Assembly: GCA_024644465.1 (NCBI GenBank)
Contig: JAHEKY010000012.1
Coordinates: forward strand, 1 to 47,613
Direction: 5' to 3'
Origin: Ilumatobacteraceae bacterium
Lineage (GTDB): Bacteria; Actinomycetota; Acidimicrobiia; Acidimicrobiales; Ilumatobacteraceae
Length of the DNA stretch: 47,613 bases
The notes below the pieces were generated by a model. The model was given only the letters and a program-made list of their open reading frames with translations, was not told the DNA's origin and did no database searches. Below are positions 6,557 to 15,550 of the stretch, in pieces. Position 1 is the first letter of the stretch. Each line of letters opens with the position of its first letter. Made by a program: the position numbers and the translations under genes.

Positions 6557-7642
6557 TCAGAGCGCGGGCTGGCGGTCGACGAACAGGTTCGACGCCTGTG
6601 TCGTCTGGGTGATCCCGTCGACGGCGAGCACGATCGCTGCGGCGGTGTACGACGTGTGTTCGTCGAACGGGAACAGCACCCGCTCGCCGTCGTCGACCGG
6701 ATGGACGATGCCGGTCCAGTACGCGCCCGGTGCAGCTGCGCCCGGCGTGTCGGTCAGCGGGGACCCCGACTCGGACTCGATCCGGTGGGGTCGCACCCAG
6801 CGGAGCAGCTCGGTCGCCGTCGACACATCGCCGATCGTCGCGAACGCGAGCGCGCACTCGGCGGTCTCCGACGCGGTGACCCACGGCTCGTCACTGACGC
6901 ACCGGATGCCGAGGCCCTCCATCGCGAACTCGTCCCAGCGATCCGCCATCCTGTCCTTCGCCCGTTCGCCGGTCAGGGCGCCGGTCAGCACGGGGTAGTA
7001 CCAGTCCATCGCCCAGCGTGTCTTGGGTTCGAACGCGTATGGGTCGGTTCGCAGGATCTCGCACATCAGCGACGCGGCCTCGCGCCACTCGGGACGCGGC
7101 TCGCCGAGTGCTGCACCGAGGTGTGCTCCGCAGCGCAGCGCGTGCTGGATGCTCGCGGTACCGGTGAGCAGCGCGTAGTTCCACGGCCGCCCGTCGGGTT
7201 CGACAGCCCACAGCGGGAGGCCGTCCGGGCGACGCAGCGTCAACACCCACTCGAGCGCGCGTTCGACGGTCGGCCACATGTTCTCCGCGAAGCCACGGTC
7301 CCACGTGCTGCGCCAGTGGTGCCAGACGCCGGTCGCGATGTAGGCGCAGACGTTGGTGTCGAGTTTCGTGTCCTCGATGGAACCGTCAGAGGCGTAGTAG
7401 CTGTGCCAGCTGCCGTCGGCGCGCTGCGTCGCAGCCAACCACTCGTATGCATGCTCGGCCTCGTGGTGGAATCCGGCGATGTCGAGCGCCATTGCCGACT
7501 CGACGTGGTTCCACGGGTCGCAGTGCCCGCCCGGGAACCACGGGATCATGCCGTTCGGCAGTTGCAGTGACGCGAGGTGCTGCGCCGTCTCGCGGACTTC
7601 TTGCGCGGAGATCACGCCGGGCAGCCCGGGAATCGCGGTCAT
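6557..7642 (-). CDS. Prenyltransferase/squalene-cyclase-like alpha/alpha-barrel protein
   Basis: 361 residues. The sequence has repeated alpha-helical units with WFPGGHCDPWNHVESAMAL near the N-terminus, RADGSWHSYY, DTNVCAYIATGVWHHW and RPDGLPLWAV, a pattern seen in actinobacterial proteins usually annotated 'prenyltransferase' because of similarity to squalene-hopene cyclase repeats. It lacks the cyclase DxDD motif as far as I can see, and the real reaction is unknown; a glycoside-processing (alpha/alpha)6 barrel is an equally fair guess. The ATG overlaps the TGA of the upstream methyltransferase (ATGA), implying translational coupling within the GT4-methyltransferase trio. The frame is open upstream but only antisense to that gene. 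Confidence 0.72.
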   Translation of the reverse strand: MTAIPGLPGVISAQEVRETAQHLASLQLPNGMIPWFPGGHCDPWNHVESAMALDIAGFHHEAEHAYEWLAATQRADGSWHSYYASDGSIEDTKLDTNVCAYIATGVWHHWRSTWDRGFAENMWPTVERALEWVLTLRRPDGLPLWAVEPDGRPWNYALLTGTASIQHALRCGAHLGAALGEPRPEWREAASLMCEILRTDPYAFEPKTRWAMDWYYPVLTGALTGERAKDRMADRWDEFAMEGLGIRCVSDEPWVTASETAECALAFATIGDVSTATELLRWVRPHRIESESGSPLTDTPGAAAPGAYWTGIVHPVDDGERVLFPFDEHTSYTAAAIVLAVDGITQTTQASNLFVDRQPAL

Positions 7643-8409
7643 GACGCCCTGCGCTCCGGCGTGTCGGCGGCGAGCATGTCGACCGCGACGACGGCCGGCT
7701 TGCGCCCGTACAGGACGATGCTCTTGCCGATCGCCGGCGAGAGCACTCGCTCCGCGAGGCGCGTCGAGCGAGGCTGGCTCACGATGTCCCACTCGAGGAA
7801 CTGCCGGTACCTGGCGACGAGGGGATGGTCGTCGTTGTGTGGGCCGACTGCGCACTTCAACCACCAGTACGGCGAGTGCAGCGCGTGGGCACGGTGCCGG
7901 CCGAGCGGCTCCAGCCCGGCGGCGACGAGCTTCGCCTTCAGCTCCGTCGCCGAGTAGATCCGGACGTGGCCGCCGGCGCTCTTCGGAGCGTGGTACTCGT
8001 CGGACAGCATCCAGTTGATCTTCTCCGGGAGCCACGCCGGAACGGTCGCCGCGAACATGCCGCCCGGGCGCAGCACGCGCACCATCTCGGCGATCGCCGC
8101 GACATCGTCCTGGATGTGTTCGAGCACCTCCGACGTGATCACCGCGTCGAATGAGCTGTCGGCGAACGGCAGCCGGGTCGCGTCGCCCCGCAGGACGCCC
8201 TTGAATCGCTCGAGGTCGATCTCACCGGTGTCGACCATCGCCCCGAGCGTGGCGCGAGTCTGGACGACTTCGTCTTCGGCGTAGTCGAGCGCCACGACGT
8301 CCGCGCCGCGACGGGCACACTCGAAGACGTGGCGGCCGAAGCCGGCACCGACGTCGAGGACCCGGTCGCCGGGCGCGATCGCGAGCTTGTCGAAGCGAAT
8401 CGTCAGCAT
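7639..8409 (-). CDS. Class I SAM-dependent methyltransferase
   Basis: 256-residue methyltransferase with the Rossmann SAM motif VLDVGAGFGRH (residues about 19-29), an acidic second strand (VVALDYAEDE), GDATRLPFADSSFD (motif for the adenine/SAM carboxylate) and SEVLEHIQD. The C-terminal half is probably the acceptor-binding part. It sits between the GT4 glycosyltransferase (7 nt upstream) and the prenyltransferase-like gene (4-nt overlap), so its substrate is probably a glycosylated or lipid-linked product of the same pathway; that is inference. ATG at 8409 is chosen because the sequence before it lies in the upstream gene. Confidence 0.85.
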   Translation of the reverse strand: MLTIRFDKLAIAPGDRVLDVGAGFGRHVFECARRGADVVALDYAEDEVVQTRATLGAMVDTGEIDLERFKGVLRGDATRLPFADSSFDAVITSEVLEHIQDDVAAIAEMVRVLRPGGMFAATVPAWLPEKINWMLSDEYHAPKSAGGHVRIYSATELKAKLVAAGLEPLGRHRAHALHSPYWWLKCAVGPHNDDHPLVARYRQFLEWDIVSQPRSTRLAERVLSPAIGKSIVLYGRKPAVVAVDMLAADTPERRAS

Positions 8410-8416
8410 CGCACCG

Positions 8417-9727
8417 TCAGTCGATCCGGCCGTTGCGCCGGAGCTTGGCGATGTTGTCCGGCATCGCGAGCACCTCGCGGTACTGCTCGACGGTCTGCTC
8501 GGCGCACAGCTTCCACGTCCACCGGTCGAGCACCCGTCGGCGGCCGGCGGCCCCGATGCGCGCCCGCGCCTCGGGGTTGTCCAGCCCGCGGCGCAGCGCG
8601 TCCACCAGTGAGTCGACGTCGCCGGCGCGGCATCCGAAGACGGTCTCGCCATCACTGCCCGTCACTTCCGGCAGTGCGCCACCGTCGGTCGCGACGAGCG
8701 GTGTGCCGGTGCACATCGCCTCGATCGCCGGCAACGAGAACCCTTCGTACAGGCTGGGAACGACAGCGAGTTCGGCCGCCGCGTAGAGCTCGACGATCGC
8801 CTCGTCGGTGACGCCGCTGACGAACTCGATGTGCGGACGCAGGCCGAGCTGGTCGATCAGATCCATCGAGTGGCCCGGCCGCGGCTTGCCGATGATCGTC
8901 AGCGAGATGTCGCGCTCGGTGCGTAGTTTGGCCATTGCCTCGAGGAGGTAGGCGAGGCCCTTCAGCGCGACGTCGGCCGACGCGGTGGTGATCAGGTGCC
9001 CCGGGCGACGTTCGATGTGGTCGATCGGGCGGAACAGGTCCGGGTCGACGCCGACGGGGACGAGCCGCATCCGGTCCTTCGCGACGCCCATGTCGCTGTG
9101 GATGTCGTCGATCGAGTTCTGGCTGACGACGACGATCCGCGGCAGCTTCGATGCGACCTTGCCCTGCATCTTGACGAACGAGTACCAGCGCCCGACCGAC
9201 CACCGCTTGTAGCGCGACTTCGCGTGCTCCATCTCCAGTTTGCGATCCTTCGTGATCGGGTGGTGGAGCGTGACGATCGTCGGGATCTGCTCTTCGATCT
9301 TGAGGATCCCGTAGCCGAGGCACTGGTTGTCGTGGACGAGGTCGAACTCGCCGGCTCGGGGCAGGAGGTGCCGTTTCGCACGGGCGCTGAAGGCGAGCGG
9401 TTCGGGGAACGTGCCGGTCAGGAACTGGGCGATCTCGAGCAGGTCTTCCCGGCTCTTGATTTCCCAGTAGCCCGGGAGCCGGCCGGGGTAGTGGTCGTTG
9501 AACGTGTCGAGGCTCGGCAGTTTCGTGAGTGGCACGCGCTCATCGAGGACCGGGTACGGCTGGCCGCCGAACACCTCGACGGTGTGGCCGAGGTCGACGA
9601 GTGCTTTCGTCAGGTGGCGCGTGTACACGCCCTGGCCGCCGACGTGCGGCTTGCCGCGGTAGGTCAGGTACGCGAGCGCGAGCGGCTCGCCGGGATCGAG
9701 GAGGCGGTGCTTCCCGGCCGAAGACAT
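8417..9727 (-). CDS. GT4 family glycosyltransferase
   Basis: 436-residue GT-B glycosyltransferase of family GT4. The N-terminal domain begins LALAYLTYRGKPHVGGQGVYTRHLTKAL, with the glycine loop that closes over the donor. The C-terminal domain has LVPVGVDPDLF, TTASADVALKGLAYLLEAM and the GT4 E-x7-E signature in PSLYEGFSLPAIEAM. The first enzyme of a three-gene unit with the methyltransferase and prenyltransferase-like protein. The reading frame could begin at GTG 9736, but that codon lies inside a TAGCGT -10 element placed 7 nt before ATG 9727, so I take the ATG as a leaderless start. Donor and acceptor are unknown. Confidence 0.87.
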   Translation of the reverse strand: MSSAGKHRLLDPGEPLALAYLTYRGKPHVGGQGVYTRHLTKALVDLGHTVEVFGGQPYPVLDERVPLTKLPSLDTFNDHYPGRLPGYWEIKSREDLLEIAQFLTGTFPEPLAFSARAKRHLLPRAGEFDLVHDNQCLGYGILKIEEQIPTIVTLHHPITKDRKLEMEHAKSRYKRWSVGRWYSFVKMQGKVASKLPRIVVVSQNSIDDIHSDMGVAKDRMRLVPVGVDPDLFRPIDHIERRPGHLITTASADVALKGLAYLLEAMAKLRTERDISLTIIGKPRPGHSMDLIDQLGLRPHIEFVSGVTDEAIVELYAAAELAVVPSLYEGFSLPAIEAMCTGTPLVATDGGALPEVTGSDGETVFGCRAGDVDSLVDALRRGLDNPEARARIGAAGRRRVLDRWTWKLCAEQTVEQYREVLAMPDNIAKLRRNGRID

Positions 9728-13324: not shown

Positions 13325-14659
13325 GTGGGGGACCGGGCCGACATGCCGATCGAGGCCGGCCTGCTCGTCCGCCGCTACTTCGTCTACAGCGGCCTGTACA
13401 CGCTGGCGGCGTCGGTGATCTGGGGCGTCAACACGCTCTTCCTGCTCGACGCGGGGCTGTCGATCAGCGAGGTGTTCATTGCCAACGCGGCGTTCTCCGC
13501 AGGCACGATGCTGTTCGAACTGCCGACCGGCGTCGTCGCCGACACGGTCGGCCGGCGGGCGTCGTTCCTGCTCTCGATCGCGATTCTCGGCGGCGCGACC
13601 GGCGGGTACGTCGCGCTCGCCAGCTTCGACAGCGGGATCGTCGCGTTCGGCGCTGTCTCGGTACTGCTCGGGCTCGGCTTCACGTTCTATTCCGGAGCGA
13701 TGGAGGCATGGCTCGTCGACGGCGTCCGCCACCTCGGCTACGACGGCGAACTCGACGTCGTCTTCAGCCGGGCCCAGATCATCAGCGGGGCGGCGATGCT
13801 CGTCGGCACGGTCGGCGGCGGTCTGCTCGGGCAGATCGACCTCGCCGTGCCGTTCGTCGTTCGTTCCGCGCTGCTGGTGATCCTCTTCGTCCTCGCACGC
13901 AGCGGGATGCGCGACATCGGCTTCGCGCCACGCCATGTCGGCCTGCGCGCGCTCCCTGCCGAGGCGGCGCGGATGGCGGCCGACGGCGTGCGATTCGGTT
14001 GGGGTCATCGCTCGCTGCGGCTGCTGATGGTCGTGACAGCGATCCAGGGCGGCTTCATGGCGTGGGCCTGGTACGCCTGGCAGCCCTACTTCCTCGACCT
14101 GCTCGGGCGTGACGCGGTCTGGGTTGCGGGCGTGGTCGCGGCCCTGCTGGCGATCTCGATGATGGTGGGCAACGCGATCGTCGAGATCGCGATGCGTTGG
14201 TGCGGGCGGCGCACGACGCTGTTCCTCGTCGCCGGCGGCGTGTTCTCGCTGGCGCTCGTCGGTGTCGGCGCCGTCGACTCGTTCTGGGCGGCCCTCGGCC
14301 TGCTCTTCGTCGGCGGCGTCACGATGGGCGTACAGCGGCCGGTCCGGCAGTCGTTCGTCCACCATGTCGTGCCGTCCGAGCAGCGGGCGACGGTGGTGTC
14401 GTTCGACTCGATGATCGCCGGCGGTGGAAGCGTCGCCGGCCAGGCCGGCCTCGGTGCACTGTCCGGCCGGCGAGGGTTCCCGGCGGGCTACATCGTCGGC
14501 GGCACGATCACGTTGGCCGCGCTCCCGCTGCTGTTCCTGTTGCGCCGGCGGCGCGACGACGCGGACTTCTACACGGGGACCGAGGTCGAGCACGCCTGCG
14601 CGGCACCCGCGCTGCCGGCGATCTCGAACGTCGCCGCCGAACCGGTCAGCTCTGGGTGA
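13325..14659 (+). CDS. MFS transporter
   Basis: 444-residue major facilitator protein with about twelve transmembrane helices. After FVYSGLYTLAASVIWGVNTLFLLDAGL comes FELPTGVVADTVGRRASFL, the conserved loop 2-3 motif (D-x3-GRR). A second copy of the loop appears between helices 8 and 9 (MRWCGRRTTLFLVAG). Substrate unknown; relatives include multidrug and tetracycline-type exporters, but nothing here fixes a drug. GTG 13325 start is supported by the upstream -10. Its 3' end overlaps the convergent thioredoxin gene by 14 nt. Confidence 0.87.
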   Translation: MGDRADMPIEAGLLVRRYFVYSGLYTLAASVIWGVNTLFLLDAGLSISEVFIANAAFSAGTMLFELPTGVVADTVGRRASFLLSIAILGGATGGYVALASFDSGIVAFGAVSVLLGLGFTFYSGAMEAWLVDGVRHLGYDGELDVVFSRAQIISGAAMLVGTVGGGLLGQIDLAVPFVVRSALLVILFVLARSGMRDIGFAPRHVGLRALPAEAARMAADGVRFGWGHRSLRLLMVVTAIQGGFMAWAWYAWQPYFLDLLGRDAVWVAGVVAALLAISMMVGNAIVEIAMRWCGRRTTLFLVAGGVFSLALVGVGAVDSFWAALGLLFVGGVTMGVQRPVRQSFVHHVVPSEQRATVVSFDSMIAGGGSVAGQAGLGALSGRRGFPAGYIVGGTITLAALPLLFLLRRRRDDADFYTGTEVEHACAAPALPAISNVAAEPVSSG

Positions 14660-14972
14660 CGAGCACCTCGGTGATCGCAGACGGTGTCGCCGCCCCGGTC
14701 AGCCGCTCGACCTCGACACCGCCGTCGACGAACACGAGCGTCGGCGTGCACATCACGCCGTACTTCGTCGCGACGTCCATCTGCCGGTCGGTGTGGACCG
14801 CGACGAACCGCCAGCGGTCGGCGTGGTCGCGTGCCATCTGTTCGAGGTGGGGGCGCAGCGTCCGGCACGGCTGACACCACGTGCCCCAGAAGTCGATCAC
14901 GACGCCGCGCTGCTCCTCGAGCAGTACCTCGTCGAGGCGGCCGAGGTCGACCTCCTCGAGCGGTTCGGTCAC
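14646..14972 (-). CDS. Thioredoxin-like protein encoded with the CxxU protein
   Basis: 108-residue thioredoxin-fold protein with WGTWCQPCR (redox Cys33 and Cys36; CQPC instead of the common CGPC) and the cis-proline region MCTPTLVFVDGG, with an extra Cys just before the Thr-Pro. No signal peptide, so cytoplasmic. The GTG start overlaps the TGA of the upstream AhpD-like gene (GTGA), implying coupled translation; AhpD-family proteins are themselves reduced by thiol-disulphide partners, so this is a likely electron donor or partner. Its start lies at the very end of the upstream frame, so its expression could depend on read-through of the in-frame TGA there. Confidence 0.88.
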   Translation of the reverse strand: MTEPLEEVDLGRLDEVLLEEQRGVVIDFWGTWCQPCRTLRPHLEQMARDHADRWRFVAVHTDRQMDVATKYGVMCTPTLVFVDGGVEVERLTGAATPSAITEVLVTQS

Positions 14973-15550
14973 GCGATGTCTTCCTGCCGGTACTCCATCC
15001 CGGTCTCGTACTCGGATTCCGGTTCGGAGTCGAGGTTCATCGTGATGTTGAACTTGTTGCCCCAGTTGAAGATCCCGCACGAGAAGACCATTTCGACGAT
15101 CTCGTCGTCGCTGAAGTGTTCCCTCAGCTTCGCGAAGAATGCGTCGGTCACGGTGTGGGGGTCGAGCGCGATGCGCTCGGCGAGCGAGACACCGAGTGCC
15201 TCGCGATCGGTGAGCTCGTCGCCGGCCTGCGGCTGGTGACTGGCGCACGCTGCTTCCTTCGGACCGACGACACCGCGCACGGCGGTGGTACGTACGGTCA
15301 TTCAATAGGCGCAGTCGTTGATCTGACCGGTCTTCAGCCGCATCATCTCGTGGATGTGGGGTTCGACGCTGCCCTCCCCGAAGAACGCGCCGAAGACCGG
15401 CACGATCGTCTTGAGCAGCGCGGGGTTGCGGCCGATGACGCCGAACATCGCGGCGTCGCCCCACCACCCCTCGCGGCCCTGCTCGAGCAGTTCGTTGACC
15501 TCGGCGTCGGGGCTTTCACCCGGCGCGAGTGGCGTGATCCGTGATGCCAT
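14969..15550 (-). CDS. Putative selenoprotein: carboxymuconolactone decarboxylase/AhpD-like, CxxU
   Basis: Read through a single in-frame TGA (15302-15304) this is one 193-residue CMD/AhpD-like protein; read strictly it would be an 82-residue fragment plus a 110-residue fragment in the same frame. The N-terminal part ends RLKTGQINDCAY and the TGA follows, then MTVRTTAVRGVVG. Cysteine homologues have NDCAYC there, so the TGA replaces the second Cys of the redox CxxC: Cys80-Ala-Tyr-Sec83. Glu68 is 12 residues before Cys80, the same spacing as the catalytic Glu and Cys of AhpD; the AhpD His position is Arg87. The C-terminal part keeps EMVFSCGIFNWGNKFNITMNLD. ATG 15550 has a strong GAGGAGGG ribosome site. 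Probable cytoplasmic peroxide or thiol oxidoreductase. The alternative is a TGC-to-TGA nonsense mutation or sequencing error. Confidence 0.75.
15262..15299 (-). promoter_or_regulatory. SECIS-like hairpin downstream of in-frame TGA
   Basis: Starting 3 nt after the TGA, the minus-strand RNA can fold as GACCG/CGGUC, a one-base U bulge, ACG/CGU, a small 3x1 internal loop, then CACCGC/GCGGUG closed by the pentaloop CGUGC. That is 14 base pairs in 38 nt, with the apical loop starting 21 nt after the TGA and a G in its second position. This fits the published bacterial SECIS consensus (apical loop about 16-37 nt from UGA, a G among the first two loop bases). GC-rich coding DNA forms hairpins easily, so this is supportive, not proof. 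Confidence 0.55.

Follow-up and report, generated by a model that had tools for sequence, protein, structure and literature searches.

A probable AhpD-like CxxU selenoprotein with a SECIS-like stem-loop and a neighbouring thioredoxin gene in an Ilumatobacteraceae genome

Introduction

AhpD-like selenoproteins with a CxxU motif have been in print since 2005, when 27 sequences assigned to COG2128 were described from the Sargasso Sea (PMC1088965). AhpD-like 1 has been counted 299 times in GOS, and the family is treated in several surveys and reviews (PMC1088965, PMC2398784, PMC9312934, PMC13188914). Two reviews, from 2022 and 2026, list it (PMC9312934, PMC13188914), and the later one files it under TIGR01926. 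As described in these accounts, the published proteins (COG2128, YciW) have the CxxU motif, a bacterial SECIS element right after the UGA and widespread cysteine (Cys) homologues.

The chemistry of AhpD has been assigned to a relay of the form Glu-Cys-His/Tyr-Cys-His, with His at the last position in all of the AhpD-like structures compared (PMC3141380). According to the same source, Mycobacterium tuberculosis AhpD acts as an adaptor for AhpC and differs in topology from PA0269, a protein that is only weakly active as a peroxidase (PMC3141380).

Here we analyze an AhpD-like gene in a 47,613-nucleotide stretch of DNA (contig JAHEKY010000012.1; hereafter the window) from an Ilumatobacteraceae bacterium whose 3.37 Mb genome is 82.9% complete. 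The original prediction allowed that the family might not be new, and the window gene is indeed a fresh example of the known AhpD-like CxxU kind, sharing by description the CxxU motif, the element that follows the UGA and the Cys homologues. The locus is a clean case, combining a covarying SECIS-like element, both selenocysteine (Sec) and Cys homologues and a recurring thioredoxin neighbour. Less expected are its patchy spread and an invariant Arg at the position of the relay His of AhpD-like peroxidases; neither the thioredoxin pairing nor this residue (Arg87) appears in the accessible portions of the published accounts of AhpD-like selenoproteins, which may report them nonetheless. A literature search for selenoproteins in Acidimicrob- returned nothing that, judged from the listed entries, was to the point.

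Results

A conserved reading frame with TGA at the redox cysteine codon

The features discussed below are as follows.

14969..15550, minus strand: predicted gene of an AhpD-like selenoprotein, encoding 193 residues from an ATG at 15550 and ending in its own TGA (14971-14969); from the translation, a 28-row alignment and the AhpD/peroxidase-related fold.
15302..15304, minus strand: in-frame TGA, codon 83, predicted to be read as Sec, giving the motif C80-A-Y-U83; of 27 covering loci, 20 have TGA here and 7 have a Cys codon.
15271..15287, minus strand: SECIS-like stem-loop with a 6 bp stem and the 5-nt loop CGUGC (alignment columns 18-34); covarying, missing in Cys genes.
14646..14972, minus strand: thioredoxin gene, 108 residues, with WCQPC; Pfam Thioredoxin 73 bits, TIGR01068 84.7 bits (below the cut-off of 96.8).

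The frame of 193 codons contains a single internal TGA, flanked by GCC-TAT and ATG, and an ordinary reading of stop codons splits the gene in two. Translation across this codon gives N-D-C80-A-Y-U83, with Glu68 12 residues ahead of Cys80, and places codon 83 at the second Cys position of the CxxC found in AhpD-like proteins. The coordinates and frame first proposed for the gene are correct, and the spacing of Glu68 and Cys80 is as had been claimed.

To survey the diversity of this codon, a collection that represents each of 84,980 species by a single genome was scanned with six short peptide patterns, yielding 151 candidate stretches, 28 of which encode a relative. The sample is incomplete, because the scan reaches close relatives only and one of the patterns has Cys at codon 83. 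Homologues share 54 to 80% identity with the window protein and are conserved on both sides of the TGA. One locus (L034) comprises the C-terminal part only, and the other 27 cover codon 83, which is TGC or TGT wherever it is not TGA. The loci with TGA come from Actinomycetota (Acidimicrobiia and Haloechinothrix), Chloroflexota, Acidobacteriota, Alphaproteobacteria and two further bacteria, and those with Cys from a Pseudonocardia, a Rhodococcus MAG and five Proteobacteria. The observation that 20 of the 27 covering loci have TGA at exactly this codon, and the other 7 a Cys codon, argues that the in-frame TGA is not there by chance, and an error of sequencing is very unlikely given that the same TGA recurs in 20 other species. 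A tree of the 28 proteins requires two changes between Sec and Cys and is also compatible with one, with 10 of its 25 inner branches well supported. The placement of the TGA at the redox Cys codon and its expected alternation with TGC/TGT, two central elements of the original prediction, are thus upheld by homologues in which the surrounding protein is conserved.

It is formally possible that translation restarts in the window gene, since its TGA is followed by ATG. The TGA would then be an ordinary stop, leaving a pseudogene or two cistrons, and the two fragments in the mechanical list of open reading frames are as such a reading would have it. However, ATG follows the TGA in only 4 of the 21 TGA genes (the window gene, L008, L014 and L016), and a break at residue 82 would part the two active-site positions. 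In the 28-row alignment conservation of the protein runs on to the C-terminus with no disruption around the TGA, in keeping with the earlier view of one intact 193-residue protein rather than a decaying gene. A pseudogene or restart would also leave the covarying stem-loop and the Sec machinery described below without a role. On these grounds we reject this explanation, to which we assign a close to negligible probability. A changed genetic code that places another amino acid at TGA was likewise rejected, because the gene's own stop is TGA, homologues have only TGA or a Cys codon at this position and a tRNA-Sec is present in the genome.

A SECIS-like stem-loop downstream of the TGA

Bacterial SECIS elements are characterized by a small apical loop with a guanosine (PMC1088965), and the TGA genes have a stem-loop directly 3' of the UGA whose small apical loop contains a G. 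In the window, 14 nt separate the TGA from this stem-loop, and the window's own sequence folds with -20.8 kcal/mol (z -2.56). In an alignment of the 21 TGA genes (the window gene plus 20 loci) that starts at the TGA and spans 48 nt, the stem was paired in 97.6% of 126 cells, the three unpaired cells all falling at pair 20-32, and four of the six pairs had changed on both sides. Among 500 shuffles, none came up to the real alignment in its pairing, its count of cells with two-sided change or its covariation score. When the partner was shifted by 1 to 3 columns, pairing fell to 15-64%. Two other measures of covariation were not above the shuffles: 48 of 500 had at least as many pairs with two-sided change, and 404 of 500 reached the observed figure for further pair types. 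Loop positions G25 and U26 are invariant in all 21 TGA rows.

The same helix was predicted in the TGA genes by RNAalifold, unprompted, and single-sequence folds of these 21 genes contained the whole 6-bp helix in 13 cases, five of its pairs in 3, three pairs in 1 and none in 4 (L010, L016, L019 and L028). In the seven Cys genes, the same columns were paired in 35.7% of cells, which is no better than shuffles; RNAalifold found only two pairs, located elsewhere, and no part of the helix was seen in any of the seven when folded singly. No Rfam family matched the window at its gathering score.

Sec machinery and other probable Sec-coded genes of the genome

Searches at E 0.001 in 14 control genomes gave matches to tRNA-Sec, selB and selD in all 14, with scores over the cut-off in 5, 2 and 2 of them, respectively, and matches to selA in 4, one of which was over the cut-off. 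Since matches below the cut-off are widespread in control genomes, only scores over the cut-off were counted as Sec machinery. The source genome has a tRNA-Sec that scores 65.1 bits (cut-off 47) and that ARAGORN also reports as tRNA-SeC with anticodon tca, and selA (395.5 bits) and selB (276.6 bits) lie side by side on one of its contigs (C149). With the selD gene described next, all four components whose search had been proposed (selA, selB, selC, selD) are present. An ARAGORN scan of the window itself found no tRNA.

The selD gene (contig C169:3-608, L036; 272.8 bits) is truncated by the contig end and contains one in-frame TGA in GAG-TGA-GCK, which we take to be the Sec site of SelD, so the selenophosphate synthetase of this genome is probably itself a selenoprotein. 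A gene for a formate dehydrogenase alpha chain (contig C36:21342-23243, L057), which scores 603.7 bits and so falls below the family cut-off of 666.25, also has one in-frame TGA, in NRT-TGA-HAPSV; this is presumably the Sec site of that protein, which is probably another selenoprotein. With the AhpD-like gene, three genes of the source genome therefore look Sec-coded.

Co-occurrence with selA and spread of the gene

When the 27 genomes with a locus covering codon 83 were searched for selA, it was over the cut-off in 18 of the 20 TGA genomes versus 2 of the 7 Cys genomes (Fisher p 0.005, a rough figure because the genomes are not independent). The two TGA genomes lacking a full selA are both MAGs, one with a fragment at a contig end (L024) and one with none (L025). 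The Cys genomes that have selA are those of Pseudonocardia sulfidoxydans and Duganella aceris, which indicates that the Sec machinery does not force the Sec form.

Within the class of the source genome, the AhpD-like gene was found at E 1e-30 or better in 3 of 395 genomes, all three with TGA at codon 83 and with selA; two of these are the genomes of L012 and L013, as judged from identical selA coordinates. Of 396 genomes sampled from the phylum, the source genome alone contained it, and the gene is absent at E 1e-30 from two genomes of the same genus, though both have selA. This patchy spread fits an accessory gene that is frequently gained or lost. Use of Sec looks common in the class, since 256 of the 395 genomes have a selA that scores above the family cut-off.

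Misbinning of the contig was also considered. The window region 6577-9675 is 76-78% identical to sequence in both same-genus genomes, so the contig is consistent with this genus. For the stretch containing the AhpD-like and thioredoxin genes, the matches listed are only scraps (31 bases in one same-genus genome and about 50 in a same-family one).

Fold, family and active site

The window protein reaches the cut-off of no Pfam or NCBIfam model. It scores 18.5 bits with Pfam CMD (PF02627; gathering score 23) and 66.6 bits with the best NCBIfam model, TIGR01926 for a peroxidase-related enzyme (cut-off 81.8), and a PHROGs search gave no match. A model for a YciW-related (seleno)protein, NF053654 GroundWater_YciW, matches over nearly its whole length and finds 28 of the 28 rows at E 0.001. 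Its equivalog cut-off is 310 bits and the window protein scores 51.6, so the protein probably belongs to a different subfamily.

The predicted structure (mean pLDDT 91.8, pTM 0.88) is all-helical and has the AhpD-like fold; with a limit of E 0.001, it matched 33 PDB chains, with titles that include AhpD/alkyl hydroperoxide reductase, peroxidase-related, antioxidant defence, the CMD family, Bmp8, and PA0269 and ATU0492 of unknown function. The nearest solved relative by sequence is PA0269. The structure of M. tuberculosis AhpD (1gu9) resembles the prediction poorly (E about 1, TM about 0.3). The separate second AhpD-like half that had been proposed was not found, as the prediction is one all-helical chain, AhpD/peroxidase-related structures match over most of it, and the stretch around and after the TGA aligns undivided to PA0269 (profile positions 58-174).

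Like PA0269 and other AhpD-like or peroxidase-related structures (2o4d, 2ijc, 2oyo, 3c1l, 6k40), the window protein combines a helical fold with E-x11-C-A-Y-C, and Glu68, Cys80, Tyr82 and Cys/Sec83 of the relay are retained in the alignment. It differs from the PA0269-type structures in having Sec for the second Cys and Arg87 for the relay His. The full AhpD relay is thus absent from this family sample, Arg87 standing at the last position in 28 of 28 rows, in Sec and Cys proteins alike. The presence of Arg for His in all rows raises the question of whether the chemistry departs from that of AhpD.

A recurring thioredoxin neighbour

The start codon of the downstream thioredoxin gene (GTG at 14972) overlaps the stop of the predicted selenoprotein gene as GTGA. 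A thioredoxin gene lies directly downstream in 19 of the 28 loci (all 7 with Cys and 12 of the 20 with TGA), 16 of them found by tblastn with the window thioredoxin and the others (L021, L024 and L028) by Pfam Thioredoxin. Judged from one open reading frame per locus, the first downstream gene is not a thioredoxin in L018, L019 and L020 (Chloroflexota) or in L023 and L026 (Acidobacteriota), and tblastn with the window thioredoxin gave no match at L025, L027, L029 and L034. A downstream thioredoxin is present in another locus from Acidobacteria (L014). The recurrence of this neighbour suggests that thioredoxin is the natural reductant of the AhpD-like selenoprotein.

Discussion

The alternation of TGA and Cys codons, the covarying stem-loop, the Sec machinery and the co-occurrence with selA support the original prediction of a probable CxxU selenoprotein, and decoding of the UGA as Sec is supported at the level of sequence comparison. 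We are highly confident that the gene encodes a genuine selenoprotein, a judgement that covers both the decoding of the TGA as Sec and a thiol/selenol redox role. The ribosome would insert Sec at UGA codon 83, directed by the downstream stem-loop, SelB and tRNA-Sec, and the active site of the product would be C80-A-Y-U83, set in a helical fold like that of AhpD-like proteins. The selenolate of Sec83 may then attack a peroxide or similar oxidant, Cys80 may resolve Sec83 to form a selenenyl-sulfide, and the thioredoxin encoded by the overlapping downstream gene may reduce this bond. We infer the peroxide-like substrate and the thioredoxin step from the fold, the motif and the gene pairing, and the specific assignment as a peroxidase acting with thioredoxin has, in our judgement, slightly better than an even chance of being right.

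The substrate could be a different one. A Sec enzyme of the same fold might catalyze another reaction, such as reductive dehalogenation or disulfide exchange, as could be surmised from the occurrence of the debrominase Bmp8 (6ohi, 6ohj) among both sequence and structural matches (the fold is shared, with a TM of about 0.7, and structurally aligned residues are 18-19% identical) and from the Arg found in 28 of 28 rows where the AhpD-like structures compared in the literature have His (PMC3141380). However, the peroxidase-related proteins are at least as close as Bmp8, and the peroxidase relay residues Glu68, Cys80, Tyr82 and Cys/Sec83 are kept, so we regard this as unlikely. Alternatively, by analogy with the adaptor role of M. 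tuberculosis AhpD towards AhpC (PMC3141380), the protein might recharge a separate peroxiredoxin and not itself be the main peroxide-reducing enzyme. The usual neighbour is instead a thioredoxin, in a survey that covered the first downstream gene only and that a nearby ahpC would escape, and we consider an adaptor role improbable to a similar degree. A more speculative proposal, to which we attach only a slight probability, is that AhpD-U and thioredoxin form a distinct mobile module with an Arg-based active site, transferred among Sec-using Actinomycetota, Chloroflexota, Acidobacteriota and Proteobacteria, which would carry out a reaction other than classical peroxide reduction, possibly a selenol-based reductive dehalogenation like that of Bmp8.

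The pair formed by the AhpD-like and thioredoxin genes is followed in the window by a gene for a transporter-like membrane protein (13325-14659; MFS type by eye), which runs toward the pair and shares 14 bases with the end of the thioredoxin gene.
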